From Bryobacteraceae bacterium (GTDB taxonomy: Bacteria; Acidobacteriota; Terriglobia; Bryobacterales; Bryobacteraceae): a stretch of DNA of 43,252 bases. Made by a program: the position numbers and the translations under genes. Positions 5,668 through 21,213 of the stretch are shown one piece after another. Position 1 is the stretch's first letter, and every line of letters begins with the position of its first letter. A model generated the notes under the pieces. It worked only from the letters and a program-made list of their open reading frames with translations. It did not search any database and had not been told where the DNA came from. The stretch spans positions 1 through 43,252 of the forward strand of contig JAIMAR010000006.1 of NCBI GenBank assembly GCA_023511855.1. The letters are read 5' to 3'.

Positions 5668-6780
5668 TCAAGCGCGCACGGCAGACGAGCTGTGGGAGTG
5701 AGGAGCCGGGAACCAGTGCCGGGTCCGATTACAAAACGCACAGACCGATAGCATGACAGGCACTTCGATGAGAACGCCGACCACGGTGGCCAGAGCGGCA
5801 CCGGAGCCCGGGCCGAACAAGGCGATGGCGGTGGCGACAGCCAGCTCGAAGAAATTGCTAGCGCCGATCAAGGCCCCCGGGGCGGCGACGGCGTATTCCA
5901 CCTTGAGAAGGCGCATCAGGCCGTAGGCAAGCGAAGAATTGAAGTAGACCTGGATCAGGATGGGCACGGCGATCAGAACTACGTGTAAGAACTTGCCGGT
6001 AATGTTGTCGGCCTGGAAGCCGAAGATCAACAGCAGCGTCACGAGCAAGGCGGTCATGCTGACCGGCGCAAAACGCGGCAGCAGTTGCTCCTCAAACCAG
6101 ACCTTGCCGTGCCGGCTGATGAACCAGCGGCGGAGCAGCACACCGGCGGTGAGAGGGATGACGATGAAAACGATCACGGAGTAGAGCAGGACCCGGAACG
6201 GAACTTCGAGGTTGGAGGCGCCGCTGACCAGAAACCGCACGATGGGAGCGAACAGGAACAGCATGATGAGATCGTTGACCGAAACCTGAACCAGCGTATA
6301 GGCGGGGTCGCCGTCGCTCAGGTAGCTCCAGACGAAGACCATGGCGGTACAGGGCGCCGCGGCCAGGATGATCGTGCCGGCGATGTATTGATCGGCGTCC
6401 GCCGGCGAGATCCACGCCGAAAAGACGAACCGGAAGAAGATCCAGGCAAACAGGGCCATGGAGAATGGCTTGACGAGCCAATTGACGAAGAGTGTGACGA
6501 AGAGTCCACGGGGGCGTTGGCCGACGCCGCGAATCGCTGCAAAGTCGACTTTCATCATCATGGGGATGATCATCAGCCAGATCAGGACCGCGATGGGGAC
6601 ATTGATCTGGCTCCCCGAGCCGAATTCCAACCGGCGCAGGCTATCGATGAGGGCGGGAAGCAGCTTGCCGAGGAGCACGCCGGCAATCATGCAGAGTGCG
6701 ACCCAAAGGCTGAGGTAGCGCTCGAACGGACCTAAAGTCTTCTTCGTAAGCTTGTCTTCCGACAGACCGGTTTGTTGCAT
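5668..6780 (-). CDS. acr3: ACR3-family arsenite efflux permease
   Basis: This integral membrane protein of 370 residues has about ten hydrophobic segments and matches the bile acid/arsenite permease (BASS) fold. The signature AAAPCTAMVFVWSYL contains the conserved membrane Cys (C144) needed for As(III) transport in ACR3 proteins. WLVKPFSMA and the late segment VLIEVPVMLS are also typical. It exports arsenite across the inner membrane using the proton gradient. The frame is open to 7014, but the start was set at 6780, where CGGAGG lies about 8 nt upstream. The usual ars neighbours are not adjacent: the ArsR-like gene is 5 kb away, no arsenate reductase is seen, and only a thioredoxin remnant remains at 4385. 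Confidence 0.9.
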   Translation of the reverse strand: MQQTGLSEDKLTKKTLGPFERYLSLWVALCMIAGVLLGKLLPALIDSLRRLEFGSGSQINVPIAVLIWLMIIPMMMKVDFAAIRGVGQRPRGLFVTLFVNWLVKPFSMALFAWIFFRFVFSAWISPADADQYIAGTIILAAAPCTAMVFVWSYLSDGDPAYTLVQVSVNDLIMLFLFAPIVRFLVSGASNLEVPFRVLLYSVIVFIVIPLTAGVLLRRWFISRHGKVWFEEQLLPRFAPVSMTALLVTLLLIFGFQADNITGKFLHVVLIAVPILIQVYFNSSLAYGLMRLLKVEYAVAAPGALIGASNFFELAVATAIALFGPGSGAALATVVGVLIEVPVMLSVCAFCNRTRHWFPAPHSHSSSAVRA

Positions 6781-7015
6781 GGTCTGAACCTCCGGGGATA
6801 AGGCAAGGCGCCGGGAGAGTCTCCGCCAAAAGCGGCGGGCCTTGCTCTGTAGGGCCGGCCCTGCGCCATGGCTGGGAAAACACCGGACGGCAGGACCGAC
6901 AAGATTCGATTGTAGCAGAAACATAGAAAGCCAAGGCCGGCGGCGCCGGATGGCACGGAAGGCCGCCCGGCGCCGCGGACGCCGGAGAAGCGCTGCGAGT
7001 CCAGGGGGCGGCACC

Positions 7016-8221
7016 TCACCAGGGACGACCGCTCGGGACCGAGATCACCTTTCCCGTGCCGCGCTCGGTGAGCAGGATGCGGCCGGATTCGACGCGCAAG
7101 CTGGAGACGCCCTGGAAGCCGAGTGGGATTTCCGTCAGGAAGAAGAGGTAGCGCTGGGTGAGGCGCTGGCGAGCACCGATCCAGCGGAAGACGGGCACGC
7201 CGAAGAGGCTGCCGCGGTTGACGGCATCCTGGAGACCGGAGGCGAACGGCGAATCGCCGATGCAGATGGCGCGGGCGACCACCTTTCCTTCCCAGGGGAT
7301 CTGTTTGGCGCGCATGTTCTCCTGCCAGTCCAGGACCCAGGGGTTGGACTGGCTCTCGTAGATGTACCCGAGCAAGACCGGGTATTCGGTGTTGTAGATG
7401 GTGAACCAGACTTTCGGGCCTGAGGTGTCGAGCAGCCAGGTTCCGGTCCGTCCAGAGAAGACGCGCTGATCGAGGGTTTCTCCCTCGGGCGTCTTCAGTA
7501 GGGGCCAGGACTCTTCGCGGAAGGAGCTGCCTTCCCGCACCGCGGTCTTGGCGACGGGCGCGTCGGCGAAGGTCTTGTTCAATTCCAGGAACGGCGGGCC
7601 GAAGGTGACGTGGCGCACCCACTGGAAGGGCCGGTCAAACTGCGCCTGGTTCTCGACGGACTCCTCCACATAGGCGACCGTTTCAGCGGCGGGCAGCGTG
7701 ATGGAACGAAGGACGCGGTACTGCGTTTTGGGGAGCTCGGCGGAGTAGACGAGGGTGACATCGCCGTCCTGGACCGTGACGCGTTCCCGTTTCCATTCGA
7801 CGGCGAGCGCCTCGCCGTGCTGGCCGAGGTCGAGGGCGAACTCGGCTTTGGAGCTGGGGCCGAAGTAGGGGAAGCAGAGGAAGTCGCCCATATAGCCGCT
7901 CATGAGGCGGCGCTGGACGTCGGTTCCGTAAAGGGCGCCGTGCTTGGCGACGTCATAGGTATGCGGGTCGATGGTTTGGTAGTGCGGGACGCGCATGGGG
8001 TTGACGCTCCTGCGCGGGTCGGGGGAGAGGAACCGGATTTCGCCGATGAAGCCGCCGCCGGGCAGGGTGGAGATGCGCATGTGGCCGTTTTGAAGGACGA
8101 AGGCGCGGCGTCCATGCAGCTTGTCTTCCTGAAAAGAAGCGGTTTGGGCGACAAGTAAAGATCCGGCGGCGGCCGTGAACAGCGCCAAGCCGAGACAGAG
8201 TGGGTTGCGTCGCAGGTTCAT
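7016..8221 (-). CDS. Secreted protein of unknown function, possible mutarotase-like fold
   Basis: The product of about 401 residues begins with a clear signal peptide: MNLRRNP, a hydrophobic core, and a likely cleavage near LLVAQ-TA. Mature residues FVLQNGHMRISTLPGGGFIGEIRF resemble the opening beta-strands of galactose-mutarotase-like (aldose epimerase) domains, and the whole chain is beta-rich with many Trp and Tyr. That link is weak, and no catalytic residues could be assigned. An in-frame ATG at 8239 would add six residues; the later start gives a better n-region. No Shine-Dalgarno sequence precedes either. It lies downstream of the two-component pair but is separated by about 70 nt. Confidence 0.65.
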   Translation of the reverse strand: MNLRRNPLCLGLALFTAAAGSLLVAQTASFQEDKLHGRRAFVLQNGHMRISTLPGGGFIGEIRFLSPDPRRSVNPMRVPHYQTIDPHTYDVAKHGALYGTDVQRRLMSGYMGDFLCFPYFGPSSKAEFALDLGQHGEALAVEWKRERVTVQDGDVTLVYSAELPKTQYRVLRSITLPAAETVAYVEESVENQAQFDRPFQWVRHVTFGPPFLELNKTFADAPVAKTAVREGSSFREESWPLLKTPEGETLDQRVFSGRTGTWLLDTSGPKVWFTIYNTEYPVLLGYIYESQSNPWVLDWQENMRAKQIPWEGKVVARAICIGDSPFASGLQDAVNRGSLFGVPVFRWIGARQRLTQRYLFFLTEIPLGFQGVSSLRVESGRILLTERGTGKVISVPSGRPW

Positions 8222-8292
8222 AGCAACAGAGACAAGCATACACCGGGCTTTCGGCGAAGGGGAGAACGAAGCGGAGGAAAGCGGCGCCGCCT

Positions 8293-8979
8293 CTATTCCG
8301 CGAACTTATAGCCCAGTCCGACCACGGTGAGGATCCACTGGGGTTTCTTGGGGTCGTCTTCGAGCTTCTGGCGCAGCCAGGCCACGTGGACATCGACCGT
8401 GCGCGTGGAGGGCGTTGCGCCGTAGCCCCAGACCTCGCGCAGCAGGCGCTCGCGGGAGAGCGTTTCACCGCGGTGTTCTAAGAAGTACCGCAGCAGTTGC
8501 CATTCCTTGGCGGAGAGCGGAACGGGGTGACCGGCGCGGGTGACTTCGGTGCGGCGGAGGTCAACCAGGACGGAGCCAAACTGCACCGTTTCCGACAGGT
8601 GGGCCGAGGGCTGGCCGGCGCGGCGGAGGAGAGCTTCGATTCTGGCCAGCAGCTCTGCCATTTCGAACGGTTTAGTCAGGTAGTCGTCGGCGCCGACTTT
8701 GAGGCCGACCACCTTGTCGACGGTCTGGCCCTTCGCGGTGAGCATCAGGATGGGCGTCGTGCAAGAGCGCTGGCGCAGATCCCGGCAGACATCGAGGCCG
8801 CTCTTGCGCGGGAGCATGATGTCCAGGATGATGAGATCGAAGGGCTTGCGGATGGCTTGCTCGAAGCCTTCCAGGCCGTCGCGGGCGATGGTGACCTGAT
8901 AACCTTCGCTGGTGAGCCGGTCTTGGAGGGTGATGGCCAAGCCGAGTTCATCTTCCACGATCAGGATGCGTTCGTTCAT
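8293..8979 (-). CDS. OmpR/PhoB-type response regulator
   Basis: Residues 1-120 form a receiver domain. D53 in LIILDIMLP is the phosphorylation site, E9-D10-E11 the acidic pocket, and the K of YLTKPF the conserved lysine. Residues 130-228 form a winged-helix DNA-binding domain (LSAKEWQLLRYFLEHRGETLSRERLL, then RTVDVHVAWLRQKL and a wing ending in VVGLGYKF). Its target genes cannot be read from the sequence. It starts 3 nt after the stop of the histidine kinase gene and is certainly co-expressed with it. Confidence 0.95.
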   Translation of the reverse strand: MNERILIVEDELGLAITLQDRLTSEGYQVTIARDGLEGFEQAIRKPFDLIILDIMLPRKSGLDVCRDLRQRSCTTPILMLTAKGQTVDKVVGLKVGADDYLTKPFEMAELLARIEALLRRAGQPSAHLSETVQFGSVLVDLRRTEVTRAGHPVPLSAKEWQLLRYFLEHRGETLSRERLLREVWGYGATPSTRTVDVHVAWLRQKLEDDPKKPQWILTVVGLGYKFAE

Positions 8980-8982
8980 GGT

Positions 8983-10731
8983 TTATGCGGTTCCTTGCGA
9001 GCTTGCCATTTGTTCGGGTTCGGCCATCGGCAGGTGGAGAGTAAAACGGGCGCCGCGACCGGGCCTGCTCCAAGCGGTGACCCGCCCGCCCATGCCTTCC
9101 ATCATGCGCCGGACCAGATAAAGACCCAGGCCGGCGCCTTTGACTTGGGCTTCCCGGGCGCTTTTGGAACGGTAGAAGGGCTCAAAGATGTGAGCCAGGT
9201 CGGAGTGAGAGAGGCCGGGGCCCCTGTCCTCGACGGAGATGGCGAGCTCACGCTGAGGCCCCTTGCTTGTGACGCCGGCGCGCACGGCGAGCCAGCCGCC
9301 GCTGGCGGCATACTTGACGGCGTTGCTAATGAGGTTCTCCAGACACTGGCTCAGGGCGTTGGCGTCCGCCAGGACCGGGGGGAGGGCGGCCGGCAAGTCC
9401 GTATCCACCTTCATGGAGGCCTGGCGCAGGGCGGGATCGGCATTTTGCAAAACGGATTCGATGATCTGCCGGGCCTGCACAGGTTGCAAATTGAAGCGGA
9501 TGCGGTCGGCTTGCTCGGCGGCGAACAGCAAGGCCTGCTCCACCATACGGGAGAGGCGGCGCCCTTCGGCGCGGATCAGATCGCCGTACTGGCGGGACCG
9601 CTCAGGGCCGGTGACAACTCCTTCGGCGAGGTTGTCGGCGGCGGCGCAGATGACCGACAGCGGGGAGCGCAGCTCGTGGGAGACACCGGCGACGAACTCC
9701 ATTTGCAAGGCCGCCAGGCGCTGGGTGCGGCGGGCGAGGACGAGGATGAGCGCGACGCTGGCGGCCAGCAGGGAAAGCAGACTGAAACTGACGGCGAGAT
9801 TGCGGCGGCGCAGCGCGCCGACCGCCGCCGCCAGCGAACCCGCGCGGTGCTGGACGGCCAGACGCCACTGGGTGTCTTTGCCGGAGGGCGTCAGCGCGGC
9901 GCCCACTGGCTCGTCCCAGCGGTCCTGCCGGGGATCCAAAAGGTCGGCTTCGGCGTCGGGGTTGGTTTGGGAGACCGGTTGGCGTGGATCGGACTCGTAC
10001 AGCACCTCGCCTGGGTTTCCCGCCGTCCGCACGGCGGCCAGAAAACTGGTTTCTCCCGGCGGGCCGAAATGGCGGGAGGCGAGCGTAGGTAAGAACTCGT
10101 TAGAGAGTCGCGGCCGGTCCAGTTCAAGAATCAGAAAGCCGATGTGATGGGTTTCAGCCGCCGGCGCCCGTTCTCCGGGGGAAACCCGGAAAAGAGCCTG
10201 CACCAGGGCGGGAGTAGGTTCGTGCAGAGTCCAGGGATGGCGATACGCCTCACGTTCGCTGATCCAGCTCAGCTCCCAGGACTGCTCGTTGAGGAGCTCG
10301 CGCAGGCGTTCCAGGCGGGGCGGCCAGGCGATCTCAACAAAGCGGAAGGTCTCACGGTCCATGAGCAGGAGGCGGGGCGTGCGCCCGTCGATCCGCCAGA
10401 CCAGCAAGTTGGCAAGCAGCCGGTAGTGAGGGTAGGAACTGACGAAATCTCCGTAGCGGCTGAGGAGGCTGTTTTCGATTTGGGCGGGAGGGGCCGCGGG
10501 GTCGGGCTGGAACGCCGCCGCGATGCGGTTCATTTCGCGGGCGAAGTCCTCCCGGAAGCGACGCACGGAGGCGGCTAGGGCATCCCGCATCCGTTCTTCG
10601 GCGCCCCGGCTGATCTCGCCGGTCCACTGATATTGGAGCACGGCGAGCAGGATGACGACGGTGCTCAAGCCGAGGACAGCGGCGATGGCGCCGGCAGTGT
10701 GCCGCTCGAACCGCATACCAACCACGAGCAT
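8983..10731 (-). CDS. Membrane sensor histidine kinase
   Basis: The kinase has 582 residues. A first membrane segment at about 12-32 (IAAVLGLSTVVILLAVLQY) and a second at about 310-330 enclose a periplasmic domain of roughly 275 residues that looks helical at its start and unlike PAS or Cache modules I recognise. The cytoplasmic part has the H-box GVSHELRSPLSV with H352, an N-box ENLISNAVKYA, a G1 motif EDRGPGLS, an F-box FEPFYRSK and a G2 motif GAGLGLYLV. It phosphorylates the regulator encoded 3 nt downstream. The signal is unknown. A second Met (residue 6) is a possible start; neither has a strong ribosome site. Confidence 0.93.
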   Translation of the reverse strand: MLVVGMRFERHTAGAIAAVLGLSTVVILLAVLQYQWTGEISRGAEERMRDALAASVRRFREDFAREMNRIAAAFQPDPAAPPAQIENSLLSRYGDFVSSYPHYRLLANLLVWRIDGRTPRLLLMDRETFRFVEIAWPPRLERLRELLNEQSWELSWISEREAYRHPWTLHEPTPALVQALFRVSPGERAPAAETHHIGFLILELDRPRLSNEFLPTLASRHFGPPGETSFLAAVRTAGNPGEVLYESDPRQPVSQTNPDAEADLLDPRQDRWDEPVGAALTPSGKDTQWRLAVQHRAGSLAAAVGALRRRNLAVSFSLLSLLAASVALILVLARRTQRLAALQMEFVAGVSHELRSPLSVICAAADNLAEGVVTGPERSRQYGDLIRAEGRRLSRMVEQALLFAAEQADRIRFNLQPVQARQIIESVLQNADPALRQASMKVDTDLPAALPPVLADANALSQCLENLISNAVKYAASGGWLAVRAGVTSKGPQRELAISVEDRGPGLSHSDLAHIFEPFYRSKSAREAQVKGAGLGLYLVRRMMEGMGGRVTAWSRPGRGARFTLHLPMAEPEQMASSQGTA

Positions 10732-11170: not shown

Positions 11171-11176
11171 TACAAT
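11171..11176 (+). promoter_or_regulatory. -10-like hexamer of the M2-like gene
   Basis: TACAAT ends 9 nt before the ATG at 11186. No convincing -35 box is seen 16-18 nt upstream. With no Shine-Dalgarno sequence in the gap, a leaderless or nearly leaderless transcript is possible. Confidence 0.35.
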
Positions 11177-11185
11177 CGCCCTGAG

Positions 11186-12976
11186 ATGCAGCGGGCGAAG
11201 CTGGCGGGCTTGAGTGCGGCGTTGTGGCTGCTGGCTGGGTGTGGTCCGCCGGCGCCGCCGGTTCAAAGGACCGAGGTGCAGGAGTTCCTGCGGATGTATG
11301 ACGACCTTTACCGAGGTCTGAGTACGGCGGCAGCGGAGGCGCAATGGAAGGCCGCAACGGATCTGACCGGCGAACACTTGGGTGAAAAGATCGGCGCAGG
11401 GCGGGCGCTGGCCGTGTTTATGGGGAGCCGGCATGTGATCGAAAACAGCCGGCGCTTTCTGCGCGAGCGGGAAATGCTGACGGATCTGGAGTTCCGCCAG
11501 TTGGACAAGATCTTGCTGAATGCCGCCGAGTCGCCCGGCACGATTCCGGAGGTGGTTCGGGCGCGGATCGAGGCGGAGGCGAACTACGACCAGGCTTTGG
11601 ACTCGGCGGATTACTGTCTGGAGCGGCGCAACGGCCAGTGCCTGAAGCCGCTCGCGGCGGAGGAACTGGAGCAGAGGCTGCGGAGTTCCACCGATTTGGG
11701 CGAGCGGCGCCGCCTATGGGAAGCCGCTCAGCAGCCCGGCGCCGGGATGAGGGAGCAACTGGACCGGGTGCGCACTTTGCGGAACCGCGTGGCTGCCGAG
11801 CTGGGCTACTCGTCGTACTTTCATTTGCGGGTGGCCGATTACGGGATGAGCGTGGCGGAGATGATGCAGCTCATGGACCGGACGGTTGCGGAGCTGGAGC
11901 CGCTGTACCTCGCGTTGCACCGCTATGCGTCCCGGCGGCTTTCCGAACGCTATGGCCAGAGCGTGGGGGAGGAGATTCCGGTTCACTGGTTGGGAGACCG
12001 GTGGGGGCGGCAATGGTGGGGACTGAGCGAGGGGCCGAATCCGGACGCAGCGTTCAAGAACCGCTCGCCGCAGTGGGTGGTGGAGCAGGCGGCGCGTTTG
12101 TACACGTCGTTGGGTTGGCCCGGGTTGCCGCGAGGCTTCTGGGAACGTTCGGATCTCTACGCGCTGCCGTCCGGCTCGCCTCGGAAGAAGCACTCCGGGG
12201 CCTTTTGCCGGCCGATCGACCGGGATCAGGACATTCGCTGTCTGATGAACGTGACTGCCAGCCGGGAGTGGTTTCGGGCGAGTCACCGGGAACTGGCCGG
12301 CGCTTATTACCATTTGGCTTACTCGGATCCGCGGGTTCCGGCGGTGTTGCGCGAGGGGGCCAGCCGGGCGTTCCATTTGGCCGTGGGCGAGCTGTTCGGC
12401 GCCGCGGCGGGACAAGAGCCGTACTTGCGGCAGATTGGCCTGCTGCCGTCCGGATCGGAGGTGGGCCAGGGGCAGCGTCTTCTTCAGGAGGCGCTGGAGG
12501 GCGATGTGGTGGCGATGCCCTGGTACGCGGGAGTTCTCAGCCGGTTTGAGTACGAGCTGTATGAGCAGAAGCTTCCTGTCGAACGATTCAACCGGCGATG
12601 GTGGGAGCTGGCCGCCCGCTATCAGAGGATTAGGCCGCCGGCGGCTCGAGGCGGGGACCAATGCGACCCCTGCGGGCTGGCCGAGATGGCCGAGGCGCCG
12701 GCGCAGGCTTACGACTACGCCATCGCGCAGTTGATCAAGCATCAGCTCCACGACTACATCGCACGCAACCTGCTGAAGCAGAGTCCCTGGCAGTGCAACT
12801 ACTACGGGAGCCGGGAGGTGGGGCGGTGGTTGTGGGAGATCCTGAGCCAGGGGGCCATGCGAGACTGGCGGCAGTTGCTGCGGGAGAGGACAGGAGAGGA
12901 CCTGAGCAGCCGGGCGATGTTGGCGTATTATGAGCCGCTGCGGGCGTACCTAGCGCAGGCCGGGACTGGGCAGTGA
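11186..12976 (+). CDS. Lipoprotein homologous to peptidase M2 (ACE) lacking the zinc site
   Basis: The product has 596 residues. It begins with a lipoprotein signal ending in the lipobox LLAGC, so it is probably anchored in a membrane facing the periplasm. The rest follows the angiotensin-converting-enzyme fold throughout: ELEPLYLALHRYASRRL, IPVHWLGDRWGRQWW, LYTSLGWPGLPRGFW, then the helix that should carry the metal site, then FHLAVGELF, FNRRWWELAARYQ, and SRAMLAYYEPLRAYL at the end. Active M2 enzymes have HExxH followed about 24 residues later by a Glu (FHEA). Here the first motif is H367-RELAG with no second His at the right spacing, and the later motif is F396-H397-L398, with Leu for the zinc-binding Glu. 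At least two zinc ligands are lost, so it should not be a metallopeptidase. The frame is intact, which argues for a retained non-catalytic role such as binding peptides. Confidence 0.85.
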   Translation: MQRAKLAGLSAALWLLAGCGPPAPPVQRTEVQEFLRMYDDLYRGLSTAAAEAQWKAATDLTGEHLGEKIGAGRALAVFMGSRHVIENSRRFLREREMLTDLEFRQLDKILLNAAESPGTIPEVVRARIEAEANYDQALDSADYCLERRNGQCLKPLAAEELEQRLRSSTDLGERRRLWEAAQQPGAGMREQLDRVRTLRNRVAAELGYSSYFHLRVADYGMSVAEMMQLMDRTVAELEPLYLALHRYASRRLSERYGQSVGEEIPVHWLGDRWGRQWWGLSEGPNPDAAFKNRSPQWVVEQAARLYTSLGWPGLPRGFWERSDLYALPSGSPRKKHSGAFCRPIDRDQDIRCLMNVTASREWFRASHRELAGAYYHLAYSDPRVPAVLREGASRAFHLAVGELFGAAAGQEPYLRQIGLLPSGSEVGQGQRLLQEALEGDVVAMPWYAGVLSRFEYELYEQKLPVERFNRRWWELAARYQRIRPPAARGGDQCDPCGLAEMAEAPAQAYDYAIAQLIKHQLHDYIARNLLKQSPWQCNYYGSREVGRWLWEILSQGAMRDWRQLLRERTGEDLSSRAMLAYYEPLRAYLAQAGTGQ

Positions 12977-12978
12977 AG

Positions 12979-13641
12979 CTACTCCCATCCCGCTTTTCCG
13001 CGCAGGGGCACGAAACGGCAGAAAGTGACGGTGCGGATATAGACGCGGCCCTGCCGTTTGCTGTAGACGCGGAGTTCTTGCTCCCAGGACGGGCCGACGG
13101 GGATGACCAGAAGGCCGGGATCTTTCAACTGTTCGAGCAGCGCCGGGGGAACGTCGGAAGCGGCAGCGGCAACTGAGATGGCGTCGTAGGGGGCGGCTGG
13201 AGGCCAGCCGAGCGAGCCGTCGGCGCAGACCACCTGGACATTGGCGCCGCAGCCGGTGCGGTCCAGGTTCTCCCTGGCATAGGCGGCCAGCTCCGGCAGG
13301 ATCTCCACGGAAATGACCCGGGCCGCCAGTGCGCCCAGAACCGCGGCGTGGTAGCCGGAGCCGGCGCCGACTTCCAGCACGGTCTCCGTGCCCTGCAATT
13401 GCAGACACTCGGCCATCAGTGCCGTCATGTAGGGCTGAGAAATGGTTTGGCCGAAGCCGATGGGGACTGGCTCGTCGGCGTAGCTGAGGTGGCGGTGCTG
13501 AGGCGGGATGAACTCCTCGCGAGGGATGCGGCGCATGGCTTCCAAAACGCGAGGATTGCGGATGCCCCGGGCGTAGAGCTGGCGTTCCACCATTTCCAGC
13601 CGTTGCCGCTCCCAATCGGTGGTGGTTGAGTTCAGGCTCAT
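12979..13641 (-). CDS. pcm: Protein-L-isoaspartate O-methyltransferase
   Basis: This 220-residue enzyme repairs isoaspartyl residues in aged proteins by SAM-dependent methylation. It shows RIPREEFIPP near the N-terminus, the family-specific IGFGQTISQPYMTALM and the SAM-binding motif VLEVGAGSGYHAAVL, followed by VISVEI. The frame is open upstream to 13962. The start was set at 13641 because its ATG overlaps the tamB stop as ATGA, giving translational coupling at the end of the envelope operon. It ends with TAG, 2 nt from the convergent M2-like gene, leaving no room for a separate terminator. Confidence 0.92.
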   Translation of the reverse strand: MSLNSTTTDWERQRLEMVERQLYARGIRNPRVLEAMRRIPREEFIPPQHRHLSYADEPVPIGFGQTISQPYMTALMAECLQLQGTETVLEVGAGSGYHAAVLGALAARVISVEILPELAAYARENLDRTGCGANVQVVCADGSLGWPPAAPYDAISVAAAASDVPPALLEQLKDPGLLVIPVGPSWEQELRVYSKRQGRVYIRTVTFCRFVPLRGKAGWE

Positions 13642-16600
13642 CGGAATTGTCTGCGGAACTGGACCTCGAGGCTGAAGAGTCCGTTCTCGTCGCGGACCGC
13701 CAGCAGCGACCACTGGCGGCTCAGATTCCATTCCACGCGCACCAGTTGCTGCTGCTCCTGCGCCAGGTTGGTCACGTAGGTGAACGTGATGTCGCGAGAG
13801 ACTTGTTGTTCCAGGGTGATTTGCGCCTCCGGGACTCTGCTGAGCCCGGTGAGGTTGGGATCGATCTTGATGCGGCTGACTCCGAAGAAGCGCTGGAGCC
13901 GGCCGCCTTCCAGGGTTTCGAAAGCCGCGCCGATGAGGGTGCTGGCGCCGATCTGCTGCCAACTTTGGTCCGCCTGGGTCTGGCGGGCGAGAACCGCGGG
14001 GTCGGCAGAAGGGGTCCGGCCGACGGCCAGCAAGGCGATGATCTCATGGACTTGAAGCGGCGGGTCGGAGCGGTAAGTCACATTGAGTTTGTCGACGGGG
14101 CCGGAGAAGTTCATGGTCACCTCGATGCCGCGCACGCGGGTGTTCAGGTCCAGATCGAGAAGCGGCTCGACGCGGAAGGGGTTGGCGAAGGTGATATCGC
14201 CGCGGCTAATGCGGTAGCGGTTTCCGAGGAAATTGATTTCACCCTGATTGACCGAGATTCGGCCTAGCAGTACGGGTTTATAAGGCGTGCCCTGAATTCG
14301 CAGGTCGGCCTCGGCCTGGAGATTGCGCGCCAGCGAGTTCTCAAAGCGGGCGTTGGGCGCGGTGGTCACTGAAACGTCCAGCTGCATGCCGCTGAGCAGC
14401 TCGTTGGGAGAGGCCGGGGGCGCGAAGGGCTGGGCGGGACGGCCGAATACGGAGGCGAAATCCAGATTTGGAGAAATGCTGCTGCGGATGACCGAGGCTG
14501 AACCGGTCAGCAGGCTGCGCTGCGCGGTGCCGCGCAGTTCGAGCGTGGCGTCGAAGGTGGTGCTGATGCCCTCCGGATAGCGGACACGCACCTGGCGGGC
14601 TGAAGCCTTGATCTGATAAAAGGGACGTTCGGATGCGAAGCCGATGAAACCGCTGAGGGAGACGGCGCCGCCGCCGGTGCGCGCGGTGAGCCGCTCGATG
14701 GTGGCCCGGTCCCGGAACAAGAAGATTTCGCCGTTGGCGCCGTCGATGCCATTGGGGATGCCGCGCAGATAAACAGAAGCGTCCTTGAGGCGCAAGCGCC
14801 CGTAGAGATCAGGCTGGCGCAGCGGACCGCGCAAGGAGAGATCCACTTCGGACGCTCCGGAGGCGGTGATGTTGCGGTCAAAGTTGCGCAGGACCTCCAG
14901 GTTCACATTCCCAATCATCCGCAGGTCATACTGCGGGCCGCGCGAGGCGAAGATCAGGCGTCCCGAGGCCTCCAGGCTGCCGCCAGCTCCGGAGAAGCGT
15001 GCGCGCTCGATCGACGCTTGTTTCGGATTGACTGAGATGCGCACCGGCGCGGCCTAGGTCAGGCGCAAGCTGCCGTTCGGCTCGCCCGTCTGCGGCTGGA
15101 GAATCACCGTGGGCAGTTCCACCTCCGCTTTCCAGACCTCCGGTTTCAGGAGCCCGGTGGAGAAGAAGATTCTGCCGTCGGCGAAAAGTTCCAGCGGCAG
15201 CGGCTGGTCCGTTTTTGCGCCGCTCAGCCCGTAGAGGGTGGACAAGGCGATCTGCCCGAAGCGCAGCTCCCCTTCCGCAGGGTAATCACCATGCAAGCGC
15301 GCCCGGGCCCGTACATTCACCGGCGCGCCGGCGGCTTTGCCCGAGCCGGTGAGTTCGAGCAAGTCGCCCTGGGTCTCGAGGGTGAACTCGAGCTGTCCGG
15401 CAGGACGTCTTTCGATGGTGACGTTGCGCACCGATCCTGTGCCGTGCAGAAGGGTGAGCCGGAGTTGCTCGCCGGCCGCGGCTTCGCCCTCGAGCGTCAG
15501 GGCCGCGTCGCCGTCGACCGCCGCCTGAACGCCGGTGAAGCTGCGAAGTTGAGACAGCTTCCAATCCCGTGCGGCCATCTCGAAGCGCAGCGTGCCCTTT
15601 CGCCAGCTTTCCGGGTTCGACTCAAAGGAGAGCCGCCCCTGGAGACGGGCCTTTCCGGATTGGAGCTGGACCGGATCCAGGGACAAGGTGCGCCCGTCGA
15701 GCCGCAGGCTCACACGCGCGATCTGGATCTTCTGGCCGTAAGCTTCAGCTTTGTCCAGACTGGCTTGTCCGGAGAGACGGGGAGCGCCAAGCGTGCCTGC
15801 GAGTTGAAAATCACCATTCAGAAGGCCGCGCAGGTCGACCTTCCGGCCGGTCTCCGCCACCAGCTCGTCGACGGCGAGGCCGCGCAACCGGAATGAGCCG
15901 CGGATGGGGCTGTCCGCAGCCGCCTTCCATTCCGTGAGGCCGATCCGGCCGCTGCCCTCCAGGCGGGCGCCTTTGTAGAGGATGTTGAGCCCGCTGGTCT
16001 GAAGCGAGTCTCTTGTAGCTTCGACGGCGGCCTGGAGGCGATCGAAGGTGTGCCTCTCATAAGACAGGTTGGAGACGGCCAGCGAGCCGCGGATTCTGGG
16101 GTTGGCCAGGTCTCCGTAGACGGAGCCGTCGAAGCGGGCCGTGCCGCTTTGGAGCCGGACCGGCAAAGGAGATGGAAGCGCAGCGCCTGCCAGCATTGCT
16201 ACGGCGGCGATGTCAGCCAGGTCCGTGGTGGCCGCGCTCAGGCGAAGTTCATTTTGCGGAGTTCCGTCGAAGCGGAGTTTGGTGGCGGGCGACGCCAGCC
16301 AGGAATCGCGCAACTGCAAAGCCGCGGAATCCTGCTCGAAGGCAAAGGCAAGGAAGCCCTCGACGGGGCGCTCCGCGGCCGTAGCTCGGACATTGAGTTT
16401 GCCGGCAGCCTTGAGCCGGGCAGGTCCCTTCGGGGTAATTTCGCCCTGCACCTCGAGGGGGCCCGATAGAGAGCCCTGCCAGGAATCCGCCTGGATATTG
16501 CGAAGGCGGGCCAGCGCGGCCAGCGAGATGCCCTCCGCCTCTCCCGACCAGCGGAAATTCTTCCATTCGAGCAGACTCGCGGCGCCGCGCAATGTGCCGC

Positions 16601-17615
16601 CTAGGGCGGAGAGGCGAAGCGCGCTGAGCTCCAAGCGGTCCGGAGCCAACCGGAACTGGGCGGTGGCGTTGGACAAGGACGTTCGAATGCCTGAGGCCTG
16701 GACAGACAAGGACGGGGCCGAAGCGTTACCGCGAGCTGAGTAGTGGCTCCTGTCCTCCAGGGAGAATTGGCCCGTGAGGCGAACCTTCCCGGAGACCGCT
16801 ACGTCTTTTGCGGGGGGGAACCACTCCTGCGCATCCAAGTGGGCGTCGAAGGACGCTTGAATCCGCGGCGCCAGAAGGTTTTCAAGGACGGCCTCCGCCT
16901 CCAGGCTCGAGCCTTGGCTGACAAATCTGGCCGGCTGCAACCGCAGGCGACGCTGGTCGAGCGTCAAAGACAGGTCCGCGTCAAAGGCGGGAAGCGGGCG
17001 TCCCGCTGCCGCGAGGTGCAGCTTGCGAAAGGAGAGTTGGCCGGTGTAGTGCGGGTCTTGCGCATGATAAAAGAGCTGCGCGGCCAGATTCTCGCCCGAG
17101 AGTTCGACCGGCAGACGCCGCTCATTGATACGAATGAGCCCTTCGCGGATTTGGAAGTAACGGATGGCCAGGGCCAAGAACTGTTGGACCGGATCGCGGC
17201 GTTCCCGCTTGACCGCAGGCTCAGGGAGATTGGTGCTTCCGTCCGGGTAGACGGTGATGTTCAATTGCGGGCGGTGGAGAGTGACGCGGGTCAGGACGAT
17301 GTCCCGGCGAACAAAGGATAGTATGCGGAAATCGACGCCGATGGAATCGGCCGAGAACAGCGGCGGTTCTTTCGGGCTTTCCTTGCCGTGGAGGACAAAG
17401 CGGGAAACTTCCGCATGGAGTCGCCGAGGATCGAAGCGGAACTGCCCGATTTCCGTGCGGCCGCCGGTGGCGCGCTCGACTTCCTGTACGATGCGCCGGC
17501 GGACCATCTCGTGGAACCATGCGGAACGGAGCAACAGCAGCACAGCGGCGGCGGCAAGCAGCACAACCGCCGCCGCGAGGGCTGCGCCGAACCAGAACCG
17601 CTTCGCTTTGCTCAC
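13638..17615 (-). pseudogene. tamB: TamB-family protein split by one in-frame TAG
   Basis: Two parts in one frame make up a TamB protein of normal length (853 + 4 + 468 codons). The first part (17615-15054) starts with GTG overlapping the upstream stop as GTGA. It has a membrane anchor at residues 8-30 and long stretches of alternating beta-strand repeats. The second part (15053-13638) is the conserved C-terminal TamB domain (DUF490), ending in VQFRRQFR. Between them is TAG at 15054-15056. Across it the sequence reads GSLRLT-stop-AAPVRISV, which looks like one continuous strand. The only restart is a GTG at 15044 without a Shine-Dalgarno sequence. TamB bridges inner and outer membranes for lipid transport and barrel-protein assembly. 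It may be broken, read through, or a base error. Confidence 0.85.
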
Positions 17616-18259
17616 CGCAAGGTCTCGTCCTTAAACTCGATGCGCACCCGGTTGCCCGCTTCTTTCAGCCACTCTTCCACCAACAGGTCCGCCCGCTGTT
17701 GGCGCAACAGGCGCTCCAGGTCTTCCCGCACCTCGTCGAAAGAGGGCGCCGGGCCCTTGCCTCTATTCTGCCACTCCGGAAGAAACTGACGTAGATAGTA
17801 GTCGCGCACGTCGGACTCCACGATTTGGACCGCGGCGCCAAAGCGGAGATCGATGAAGCGCAGGACCGCCGCTTGTTCCAGCAAGTAACGCCGCAGATCT
17901 TCCTCTGTAAGGCCGTATTTGAGGAGGGCGTCTTCCAGCGAGGAAGATCCCTGGCTGCGGCTCTTCCTCAAGGATTCCAGAGCCGGCCTCACTTCCTCCG
18001 GATCTGGGTTGAGGTAGCGGCCCGCCTGCATTTCGGCGGCGATCAGAGCCCTCTCGATGAGACGTTTGGCGGCGGCCTTGCGGCTTTGGTCTGAGTAGTC
18101 CGGTTCGGACTGATTGAGGAATGAGGACAGGCGGATCTCCTTCACCAGGTCGCTTTCGGTGATGGCCCGGCGGCCGACGGTGACCACGATGCGGTCCAGA
18201 ACCGCGGGCAGGCAGGTGAGGGCGCAGGCGCATAAAAGAAACCACAGCCGGCCGCGCAT
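17612..18259 (-). CDS. SurA N-terminal-domain-like periplasmic protein without PPIase domain
   Basis: This 215-residue protein has a signal sequence (MRGRLWFLLCACALTCLPAVL). The rest resembles the chaperone part of SurA: DRIVVTVGRRAITESDLVKEIR near the start, a helical middle with LIERALIAAEMQ, and a C-terminal helix before VRIEF. No parvulin rotamase domain is present; the chain goes straight from the N-terminal to the C-terminal helices. It probably escorts unfolded outer-membrane proteins in the periplasm. The start was set at 18259, where ATG overlaps the TAA of the upstream barrel gene as TAATG. Its TGA overlaps the GTG of tamB. It sits exactly between the barrel and TamB genes. Confidence 0.75.
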   Translation of the reverse strand: MRGRLWFLLCACALTCLPAVLDRIVVTVGRRAITESDLVKEIRLSSFLNQSEPDYSDQSRKAAAKRLIERALIAAEMQAGRYLNPDPEEVRPALESLRKSRSQGSSSLEDALLKYGLTEEDLRRYLLEQAAVLRFIDLRFGAAVQIVESDVRDYYLRQFLPEWQNRGKGPAPSFDEVREDLERLLRQQRADLLVEEWLKEAGNRVRIEFKDETLR

Positions 18260-21213
18260 TAGAAGGTCTGCCCCAGGGAGAAATGGAACTGCAAACGGTT
18301 GATGCGCTGATCGGAGGGATTGCAGCGTCCTGCGAGCAGATCCTCGCGGGTGCCGCTGCAACCGTAGAAGCGGGGAGAGTTAGGGGAGAACGACAAGTCC
18401 AGGCGGACCGGCCCGACGGGGGTGCGGTAACGGAGGCCGAGCCCGACTGAGTGGACCATGTAATCGAAGTCGGTCTTGTTGCGCTGGCGCACGCGGAAGG
18501 ATACGTCGCGGACGCTGGAGTACACGTTGCCGGCGTCGTGGAACAGGACGCCGCGGATGTTTTGTCCGGCGATGGGGAAGCGCAGTTCGGTGTTGAAGGC
18601 AAGTAGGGCTTTGCCGCCCAGAGGGAAGCCGGTCTGCAAGTCGCGCGGGCCGGCCTGGTTTTCGGGAAAGGCCCGGTGGGAGCTAGCGCCGCCGGCGAAG
18701 AATCGCTCCGGCAAAGGGATATCCTGCGGGCTGGGGAGCTGGCCGGGACGGCGGCGCAAGGTGGTCATCAGTCCAAAGGAAGTATTGCGGGCCAGCACCA
18801 GGCGGCCGGTGAGCGGGTGGTAGGTGGAGTTGCGGGCCAGCAGGCGGCCGTAGTCGGTTTCGGAGACAAAGAGGCGGGAGGCCACGCCGAGGTCGAGGCT
18901 GTTGTAAGTGCCGCGGCTGGAATCGATCGGATCATCCCGGCGGTCGTCGACGTAGGAGGCCGAGAAGACTCCGACGCGCACCGGTTGAGACAGCAGCGGA
19001 ATGAGGTCCTTGCTGATGTTGAGGGTGTTCTGATCGACCGAGACGCGGCGGTAGGCGAAACGATAGAAGAAGGTCTTCGAGCGGGTCCAGCGGTGCGCGA
19101 TCTGAGTGGAGCCTTCCCAACGCCGGGCCGAGAAGGTGCGGACGTTCTTGGAAGTGTCGAACAATGCGTTCACGGTCAAGTCCAGATTTTGCCGGTTGCG
19201 GAACTGGGGCGCCAGGTAACTGAGCAGGACGCGTTGCTGCAAGGTGGACACACGGTTGCGGAGGCTGACGGTGTGCGCACGGCCGAGGAAGTTCAAACGG
19301 CTTAGATCAAAGGAGACGCGAGGACTGAAACCCGCTTGTCCGGCGGGGGCGGTGAGATCGGTGCGGCTGCCGCCGATGCGGGCGATTTCGGCGCCGACGC
19401 CGCCGGCTATGGAGTACTTGCGGGATTCTTCCATTTGGAAGTCGACGTATTTAGCCGGCTCTTCACCGTCCGGATTCTGGATGGCGGTTTCGACTTTGGC
19501 GAAGATACCCAGGTCGTAAAGACGGCGCTGGGTCTGGATCATTTGCGTGGGCGAAAGCGGGTCGCCGACATTGATACCCAGTCTTTGGTGGACCAATTGC
19601 GGGCGAGTAGCCTCCAGTCCTCCCAAGAGGACCTCGCGCACCACGCGGCTGGGGCCTTCCCGGACGGTGTACTGCAACTCCATGCGGGACGGCTCGGGGG
19701 AGGGCCGGTAGGCGTATTCGAACTGGGCCTCGGAATAGCCGCGGTCGTAGTAATAGGCCAGGATGTTATCGCGGTCGGCGGCGATATTGGCTTCGCTGAA
19801 GGGCTGGCCGGGGGCGGACTGGAGGATGCCGCGGATGGCGGCTTCATGCTGCGGGCTGATGCCTTGGAAATCGACGCGGGAGACCAGCCACTGCGGGCCT
19901 TCCTCAATGTGGAAGGTCAAGGCAGTTTGCCCGCGCTTGCCGCGGTAGTTCTCCTCCAGACGCGCCGTGACTTTGACCTCGCGGAAGCCGTTGGTGCGAT
20001 AGAGGCTCTGAATGGAGTTCAGATCCCGCTCCAGGATGTTGGCGCTGAACCGGCCGCGGCGGAGGTGAAGCGTGCCCGCCGGGGCAGCCAAGAGCCGTTC
20101 GCGCAGCGTCCGTTCGTCGAAGTAGCGGTTCCCGCGGATTTCAATGTGAACCAGCTTGTGACGTTCACCTCGCTCGACCTTGTAAGTGATGCGCATGCGT
20201 CCTGAGGCGTCTTGGGAAGACGCGTAGGTGACCCGGGCATCGAAGTAGCCCTCCGCTTGCAGGTATTCGGTGAGCTGGCGAGCGCCTTCTTCCAGCAACT
20301 CCCTGTCGACGGTCTGCTCCTCGAAGATAGGGATCAGCCGGCGCAGGCGGCCACGGCCGACTTTGGCGCCCTCCACCTCGATTACAACGGGCGGCCCCTG
20401 GGTGACGGTGAGATGGGGGATGGCGGTCCCGGTTGACGGATCGTAGTCCGTCCGGTCTAAGGAGACCCGAGCCATGAGGTAATCTCTCTTGCTGAAGGAG
20501 CGCAGGAGGCGCTGGATGCCGTTTTGAATTCGTTCTTCGGTGAGGCGGCGCCAGCCAAACCAGCCTTTCCATTTGGCAGCCTTTAGCAGGCGGCTGGGAG
20601 GGTCTTGAAACTGCCCTTCCCAAACCGGCGGGCCGAACCGGGCCCGCGGGCCGGGCTGAATCTGGAAGGTGATGCTGGCTTGCTGGGTGCGGTGGTCGTA
20701 GGAGACGCGAGGCTCGAAGGTGGGTTGAAAGAATCCGTTGTTGGCGAGGACCCGTTTTAGATTTGCGGCGGCCGCGTCCAAGTCTTCGGTGTAGAAGGGC
20801 GCGCCGAGCTTCAGACCGGTGGCGTTGACGAGCGGACCCTTGCCCGGGGGCTGAGGAGCGCCCACGACCGTCACCGGGCCGACGAACCAATTGCCTTTGG
20901 TGCGGATGCGGATGGCCAGTTGGCCGTTCACCTCGTCGGCTTCCACGGCGATGTCATTGTAGCGGCCGGTGGCGTAAAGGCGGTCGATGGTTTCGCGCAC
21001 GTCTTTCATTCGCAAGGGCTGGTTGCGGCGCAAGGGAAGGATGGCGTTTAACTCTGAGGCGGGCAAGGGTTGCAACGCCGGATCGAAGCTCACGCTGGCG
21101 ATGGTTCGGCCCTCGTAATCGCCGGCGCCCGCAAGCAATCCGGCACTGAAGCAGAGGAGGAGAGCCAGCGCCTTCTGAGTTCGCAAGGCAGTACAGCGCA
21201 CTTCCTGCATCAT
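18259..21213 (-). CDS. BamA/TamA-family outer membrane barrel protein
   Basis: This 984-residue protein has a signal peptide (hydrophobic core ALALLLCFSAGLLAGA). A series of POTRA-like domains covers about residues 30-620; the clearest are around 35-110, 355-435 and 440-525. A C-terminal Omp85 barrel follows from about 640 and ends in Phe (HFSLGQTF), the usual signal for barrel insertion. The loop-6 motif, normally V/I-RGF, reads SSHRAF with the key Arg kept. Omp85 proteins fold other barrels into the outer membrane. Its place as first gene before tamB favours a TamA-like role, but the many POTRA domains are more BamA-like, so the exact subtype is open. The start lies only 28 nt from the divergent thiF-like start, so the promoters must overlap. 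Confidence 0.9.
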   Translation of the reverse strand: MMQEVRCTALRTQKALALLLCFSAGLLAGAGDYEGRTIASVSFDPALQPLPASELNAILPLRRNQPLRMKDVRETIDRLYATGRYNDIAVEADEVNGQLAIRIRTKGNWFVGPVTVVGAPQPPGKGPLVNATGLKLGAPFYTEDLDAAAANLKRVLANNGFFQPTFEPRVSYDHRTQQASITFQIQPGPRARFGPPVWEGQFQDPPSRLLKAAKWKGWFGWRRLTEERIQNGIQRLLRSFSKRDYLMARVSLDRTDYDPSTGTAIPHLTVTQGPPVVIEVEGAKVGRGRLRRLIPIFEEQTVDRELLEEGARQLTEYLQAEGYFDARVTYASSQDASGRMRITYKVERGERHKLVHIEIRGNRYFDERTLRERLLAAPAGTLHLRRGRFSANILERDLNSIQSLYRTNGFREVKVTARLEENYRGKRGQTALTFHIEEGPQWLVSRVDFQGISPQHEAAIRGILQSAPGQPFSEANIAADRDNILAYYYDRGYSEAQFEYAYRPSPEPSRMELQYTVREGPSRVVREVLLGGLEATRPQLVHQRLGINVGDPLSPTQMIQTQRRLYDLGIFAKVETAIQNPDGEEPAKYVDFQMEESRKYSIAGGVGAEIARIGGSRTDLTAPAGQAGFSPRVSFDLSRLNFLGRAHTVSLRNRVSTLQQRVLLSYLAPQFRNRQNLDLTVNALFDTSKNVRTFSARRWEGSTQIAHRWTRSKTFFYRFAYRRVSVDQNTLNISKDLIPLLSQPVRVGVFSASYVDDRRDDPIDSSRGTYNSLDLGVASRLFVSETDYGRLLARNSTYHPLTGRLVLARNTSFGLMTTLRRRPGQLPSPQDIPLPERFFAGGASSHRAFPENQAGPRDLQTGFPLGGKALLAFNTELRFPIAGQNIRGVLFHDAGNVYSSVRDVSFRVRQRNKTDFDYMVHSVGLGLRYRTPVGPVRLDLSFSPNSPRFYGCSGTREDLLAGRCNPSDQRINRLQFHFSLGQTF

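Follow-up and report, generated by a model that had tools for sequence, protein, structure and literature searches.

A Probable Non-Catalytic Peptidase M2 (ACE-Fold) Lipoprotein in Two Genera of Bryobacteraceae

Introduction

Members of peptidase family M2 that lack essential active-site residues have been described in animals, namely ACN-1 of C. elegans, which has an essential developmental role, and ANCE-2, -3, -4 and -5 of Drosophila (PMC1325048). Another animal M2 pseudoenzyme, ACE3, keeps the His ligands (HQMGH) and has lost the Glu (PMC1925091). Loss of the zinc site with retention of the fold is also seen in M16 alpha-MPP, M41 FtsHi and M13 Gone early, which have binding or partner roles, and the 2024 review of inactive metallopeptidases that describes them has no M2 member in its tables (PMC11266112). 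Xanthomonas XcACE, a canonical bacterial ACE homologue, is catalytic as it is cited in PMC3354321. We found no bacterial ACE pseudoenzyme in the open-access literature searched, which is weak evidence of absence.

Here we describe an M2 gene from a Bryobacteraceae bacterium, located in a 43,252-nt stretch of DNA (contig JAIMAR010000006.1), which we refer to as the window. An earlier sequence-only reading of this DNA had likened its product to the non-catalytic ACE relatives of animals, including ACN-1, in agreement with PMC1325048, and had known of no bacterial case, which the open-access literature did not contradict. The window protein resembles ACN-1 and the ANCE proteins in being an M2 family member without the essential active-site residues, but those are animal proteins and not lipoproteins, whereas it is a bacterial lipoprotein. 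It shows the reverse of ACE3, keeping the Glu and losing the His ligands, and the inactivation in the window gene is independent of that in the animal M2 pseudoenzymes. It has the M2 fold in common with XcACE, and the loss of the zinc site from a retained fold in common with alpha-MPP, FtsHi and Gone early, although these belong to families other than M2.

Results

The Window Gene Encodes an ACE-Like Lipoprotein

The gene (L041 in our survey) is an intact open reading frame of 596 codons (Table 1). A Pfam profile search with its product matched PF01401 (Peptidase_M2) with 248 bits and an E value of 2e-73, spanning residues 28-592 of the protein and 4-571 of the 581 profile positions, and phmmer matched PDB chains of ACE and ACE2; the NCBIfam search gave no match. 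We built an AlphaFold2 model with the window protein and eight relatives as input; its mean pLDDT was 85.7 and its pTM 0.87, and in Foldseek it matched human tACE and ACE2 at TM scores up to 0.87. Both the helix that bears HExxH in ACE (residues 360-379) and the one that bears the third ligand (394-408) are retained in the model. The protein thus belongs to family M2 by full-length homology and by fold. Its N-terminus has the signal peptide and the lipobox Cys of a bacterial lipoprotein (MQRAKLAGLSAALWLLAGC). These data bear out the sequence-only reading as to an M2 fold recognizable from end to end, an intact frame and a lipobox, here LAGC at residues 16-19. The product is predicted to be a membrane-anchored periplasmic lipoprotein, descended from a subfamily of catalytic M2 lipoproteins resembling dipeptidyl carboxypeptidases.

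Table 1. Features of the M2 locus and its neighbors, in window coordinates.
Feature	Position	Strand	Basis
TACAAT, -10-like box 9 nt before the ATG (putative leaderless-type promoter)	11171..11176	+	conservation in orthologues
Peptidase-M2 (ACE-fold) lipoprotein, 596 aa, predicted non-catalytic	11186..12976	+	ORF, PF01401, AF2, Foldseek
Lipobox LAGC, residues 16-19, predicted lipidated Cys19	11231..11242	+	sequence; comparable lipoboxes in L050 and many catalytic orthologues
R275 at the ACE Gln281 site (carboxylate anchor); same Arg in sister L050	12008..12010	+	alignment
H336-P343, NTHASAWH segment changed to HSGAFCRP; ACE His353 lost (G338)	12191..12214	+	alignment
H367-G372, HHELGH changed to HRELAG; R368 and G372 for the zinc histidines, E369 kept	12284..12301	+	alignment
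FHLA (F396-A399), L398 for the third zinc ligand Glu411	12371..12382	+	alignment
Residues 496-511, Lys511/His513/Tyr520 changed to L498/E500/A508; Tyr523 kept as Y511	12671..12718	+	alignment
pcm-like protein-L-isoaspartate O-methyltransferase, convergent neighbor; 5' end uncertain	12979..13962	-	PF01135, 207 bits
tamB-like region (TamB + DUF748/AsmA-like), broken by in-frame TAG at 15054-15056	13638..17615	-	domain matches, relatives
Omp85 with POTRA domains (TamA/BamA type)	18259..21213	-	domains; syntenic in relatives

The Zinc Ligands and Most Substrate Anchors Are Replaced

Zinc ligands, catalytic Glu and substrate anchors are given here in tACE numbering, with the roles that we take to be established for ACE. 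In the subfamily alignment, which is ungapped at the motif, WFETSHHELGHVYY of the subfamily corresponds to WFRASHRELAGAYY in the window protein. All three zinc ligands are replaced (H383 by R368, H387 by G372 and E411 by L398), and the catalytic Glu is retained (E384 as E369). The substrate anchors Q281, H353, K511, H513 and Y520 are replaced by R275, G338, L498, E500 and A508, respectively, and only Y523 is retained, as Y511; the substrate positions accordingly read R, G, L, E, A, Y, as compared with QHKHYY in catalytic relatives. The window protein therefore has neither HExxH with a downstream Glu nor the substrate anchors expected of an active zinc peptidase.

The sequence-only reading had noted the absence of HExxH and the change of FHEA to FHLA, and the alignment, with HRELAG in place of HHELGH, agrees on both. 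Its estimate that at least two ligands were missing was right as to the loss but too low in number. It had offered two alignments, one keeping the catalytic Glu after a one-residue insertion and the other placing Arg368 at the Glu; the retained Glu stands, whereas the insertion is ruled out by the ungapped alignment, and Arg368 corresponds to His383. The loss of the five substrate anchors lay beyond what it had reported. With these replacements a canonical zinc site cannot form and the ACE-like hold on the peptide C-terminus is gone, and the window protein is almost certainly without zinc-peptidase activity.

Loss of HExxH Is Confined to Two Genes among the Loci Searched

The window gene falls in an M2 subfamily (subfamily 2) distinct from canonical M2, which we found in a minority of genomes of the same family and also outside it, both in other families of the phylum and in MAGs of KSB1 and Planctomycetota. 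The 75 related loci that were scored at the key positions, from across the phylum and beyond, include a few cases of the same gene fetched twice. The zinc and catalytic positions read His-Glu-His-Glu in 74 of these loci, as compared with REGL in the window gene, and all of the 74 except the stop-ridden L063 also have Gln-His-Lys-His-Tyr-Tyr at the substrate positions. The sole exception is L050, from a genome of another genus of the same family (G025), which has the motif HQELGQ, Gln-Glu-Gln-Glu at the ligand positions and Arg-Leu-Glu-Ala-Tyr-His at the substrate positions. Loss of HExxH thus appears to be rare, being confined to two genes among the loci searched.

Catalytic lipoproteins of subfamily 2 (e.g., L042, L043 and L048, and those of the KSB1 and Planctomycetota MAGs) are direct orthologues of the window gene, about 40-61% identical to it, with a single M2 domain as in the window gene and in many cases a lipobox; unlike it, they have HEHE and QHKHYY intact, and in the relatives checked they occupy other genomic positions. 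In addition, the window genome (G000) carries a canonical M2 (G000:C1; 779 bits), unlinked to the window gene and with about 30% identity to it; this canonical copy shares the M2 fold but has HHELGH intact and is predicted to be catalytic. The genome of L050 likewise holds a canonical M2. A plasmid search returned distant M2s only. A horizontal origin from a distant group is unsupported, since the nearest relatives are same-family orthologues. One subfamily-2 locus, L039 (CAMBIK010000054.1), lies in a record titled as a Klebsiella pneumoniae MAG, a label that probably reflects an error of binning or contamination.

The Two Degraded Copies Share an Ancestor

The window gene and L050 formed one clade with a support of 100/100, and the support was 98/96 after removal of the active-site columns. 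Fourteen residues are private to the pair among the members compared, as against 1-2 for the other pairs tested. Both genes have lost the two His ligands, His353, Lys511 and His513, and both share Q281R. Because these losses and Q281R are common to the pair, they suggest that the active site was crippled before the two genera split, and the differing replacement residues (R/Q, G/Q, L/E) would fit later drift. The frame of L050 is intact and its protein is inactive by sequence as well, so that the inactivated state is found in two species of a clade supported at 98-100%. The pseudoenzyme is best read as being at least as old as the genus split.

It could be argued that the two copies lost their sites independently and were grouped by long-branch attraction only. 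Both terminal branches are indeed long (0.95 and 0.70), and the two copies have mostly different replacement residues. However, the support without active-site columns, the private residues, a gene order unique to the two (see below) and a pairing of the host genomes, albeit a weak one (84/75), in the RpoB tree all run against this explanation, which we regard as very unlikely. The sequence-only reading had allowed that orthologues with intact HExxH might expose the window copy as a recent mutant. Such orthologues are indeed the rule, but the conclusion does not follow, since L050 is degraded too: a recent mutant or a sequencing error is ruled out by an independent genome, of another genus, with the same degraded state and position.

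The Gene Adjoins a tamA-tamB-pcm Cluster Only in the Two Genomes

Gene order provides independent evidence that the two genes are sisters. In G000 and G025, an Omp85-DUF748-tamB-pcm cluster ends in a pcm-like gene that converges with the M2 gene, and the order M2-pcm-tamB-DUF748-Omp85 was found only in these two among the genomes checked. In five relatives with an M2 that is catalytic by sequence, the cluster is conserved but lacks an adjacent M2, the M2 gene being located at another site. The simplest reading would be that, on the stem leading to the two, the gene was relocated, or was duplicated and then lost from its original site.

The tamB-like gene is uninterrupted in nine relatives (about 1340-1540 codons), and the window copy is split by its single in-frame TAG at 15054-15056 on the minus strand, which may be either a genuine nonsense codon or a fault of the assembly. 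The minus strand at 5668-10731, upstream of the M2 gene, carries genes for a two-component kinase and regulator, then for a DUF4432-like protein whose match is below the Pfam cut-off, and for an SBF-family transporter; this gene set was not found beside L050.

The Window Gene Is Very Probably Kept by Selection

To locate the changes, we used the 128 positions that are invariant in catalytic relatives, 36 of them in active-site segments, which we chose from knowledge of tACE, and 92 elsewhere. The window gene is changed at 16/36 active-site positions and at 12/92 of the others (Fisher p = 2.6e-4), and L050 at 13/36 and 8/92, respectively (p = 4e-4), as compared with 0-2 changes at the active-site positions of any one catalytic relative. 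When the two pseudoenzymes are compared with each other and set against catalytic members, degradation is greatest at 325-354 and 475-504, the regions of the HASAW strand and the KTH loop, and region 205-234 is kept at 80%. At codon positions 1 and 2, the pseudoenzyme branches are about 2-3 times longer than those of the sister enzymes, and constraint on both pseudoenzymes is therefore relaxed. The rate at these positions is nevertheless far below that at position 3. The codon-model omega was 0.014-0.033 in alternative fits, values that are bounds only, as synonymous sites are saturated; pairwise YN00 estimates and rates at third positions reach saturation too and likewise serve as bounds. The frame of the window gene has stayed open through hundreds of substitutions, whereas in a neutral simulation the probability of no stop was about 0.001 after 300 substitutions. 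An intact frame under purifying selection is thus seen in two genera, with omega well below 1 and changes clustered at the active site, for the period before the most recent branch.

An alternative is that the gene is decaying: catalysis would be redundant beside the canonical M2, the active site would have been lost first, and slow decay would have left the frame intact so far. The faster evolution of both copies and the presence in each genome of a canonical, apparently active M2 are compatible with this, and an orthologue in G009 (L063; G009:C81:16657-18297) has several internal stops, from which it follows that the gene can be lost. That copy, however, keeps HHELGH, FHEA and KTHI intact; it appears to be an ordinary decaying copy, with a pattern opposite to that of the window gene. 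In addition, both genera have retained the frame and a promoter-like box, omega lies far below 1, and invariant positions outside the active site are largely kept (80/92 in the window gene and 84/92 in L050). We consider decay unlikely, and the window gene appears very probably to be kept by selection. The proposal of the sequence-only reading, a kept pseudoenzyme, remains the best one, given a sister that is degraded at the same sites, with an intact frame, in the same position and joined to it at 100/100.

The box in question, TACAAT, lies shortly ahead of the likely start codon in most orthologues from the same family, commonly as TACAAT-N6-GTG, and in both pseudoenzymes too. It is as would be expected of a leaderless-type promoter, here predicted, that travelled with the gene, and its conservation across the family suggests that this M2 subfamily may be transcribed without a leader.

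Discussion

Overall, the window gene probably encodes a retained non-catalytic M2 lipoprotein, that is, a pseudoenzyme. The ancestor of the two genera would have carried a relocated M2 copy with a crippled active site, and the present protein would be non-hydrolytic and membrane-anchored and would act by binding. Since the anchors for the C-terminal carboxylate were lost along with the zinc site, a scaffold or partner-binding role, through its surfaces or a remodelled cleft, would be expected rather than a peptide trap of the ACE mode. This role is argued by elimination, and we favor it by a narrow measure.

Two other roles were weighed. The protein might have remained an enzyme by means of a substitute metal site, or of another chemistry, built on Glu369 and new His or Cys residues: the catalytic Glu is kept in both copies, and H336, C341 and H376 have arisen close to the former site. 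The sister L050, however, does not share these residues (S336, T341 and C376), although it also lacks both His ligands, and the substrate anchors are lost, so that there is little to commend this explanation. Somewhat less improbable, though still poorly favored, is that the protein acts as an inactive subunit beside the canonical M2 of the cell, to regulate or stabilize it, in the manner of the inactive alpha subunit of the mitochondrial processing peptidase. Pairs of an inactive and an active metallopeptidase occur in M16 (PMC11266112), and both pseudoenzyme genomes have a canonical M2 (HHELGH was read in the window genome); yet the two kinds of copy share only about 30% identity and are unlinked, and subfamily members that bear the active site coexist with the canonical enzyme as well (G055 and G033).

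As to its partners, adjacency in two genomes is only suggestive of a functional link between the window protein, as a putative binding protein, and TamA/TamB or Pcm. The more specific proposal, that an ACE-type peptidase became an envelope lipoprotein without catalysis and took on a dedicated function tied to the TamA/TamB outer-membrane assembly module and the protein-repair methyltransferase Pcm, is speculative, and we hold it to be doubtful.

Because the window protein is M2 by homology and fold and yet lacks the defining catalytic features, it should best be filed as a non-peptidase homologue of M2. In the open-access literature searched, bacterial M2 proteins are otherwise described as peptidases, and ACE pseudoenzymes have so far been reported only among animals, namely mammals, worms and flies; the window protein is probably a bacterial one. 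A note of caution follows for annotation, as a Pfam-based label would call it a peptidase. This two-genus bacterial lineage would represent an independent replicate of ACE pseudoenzyme evolution, in which the fold, the membrane anchor and the frame are kept, and catalytic orthologues in sister genera allow the pseudoenzymes to be compared with them directly.
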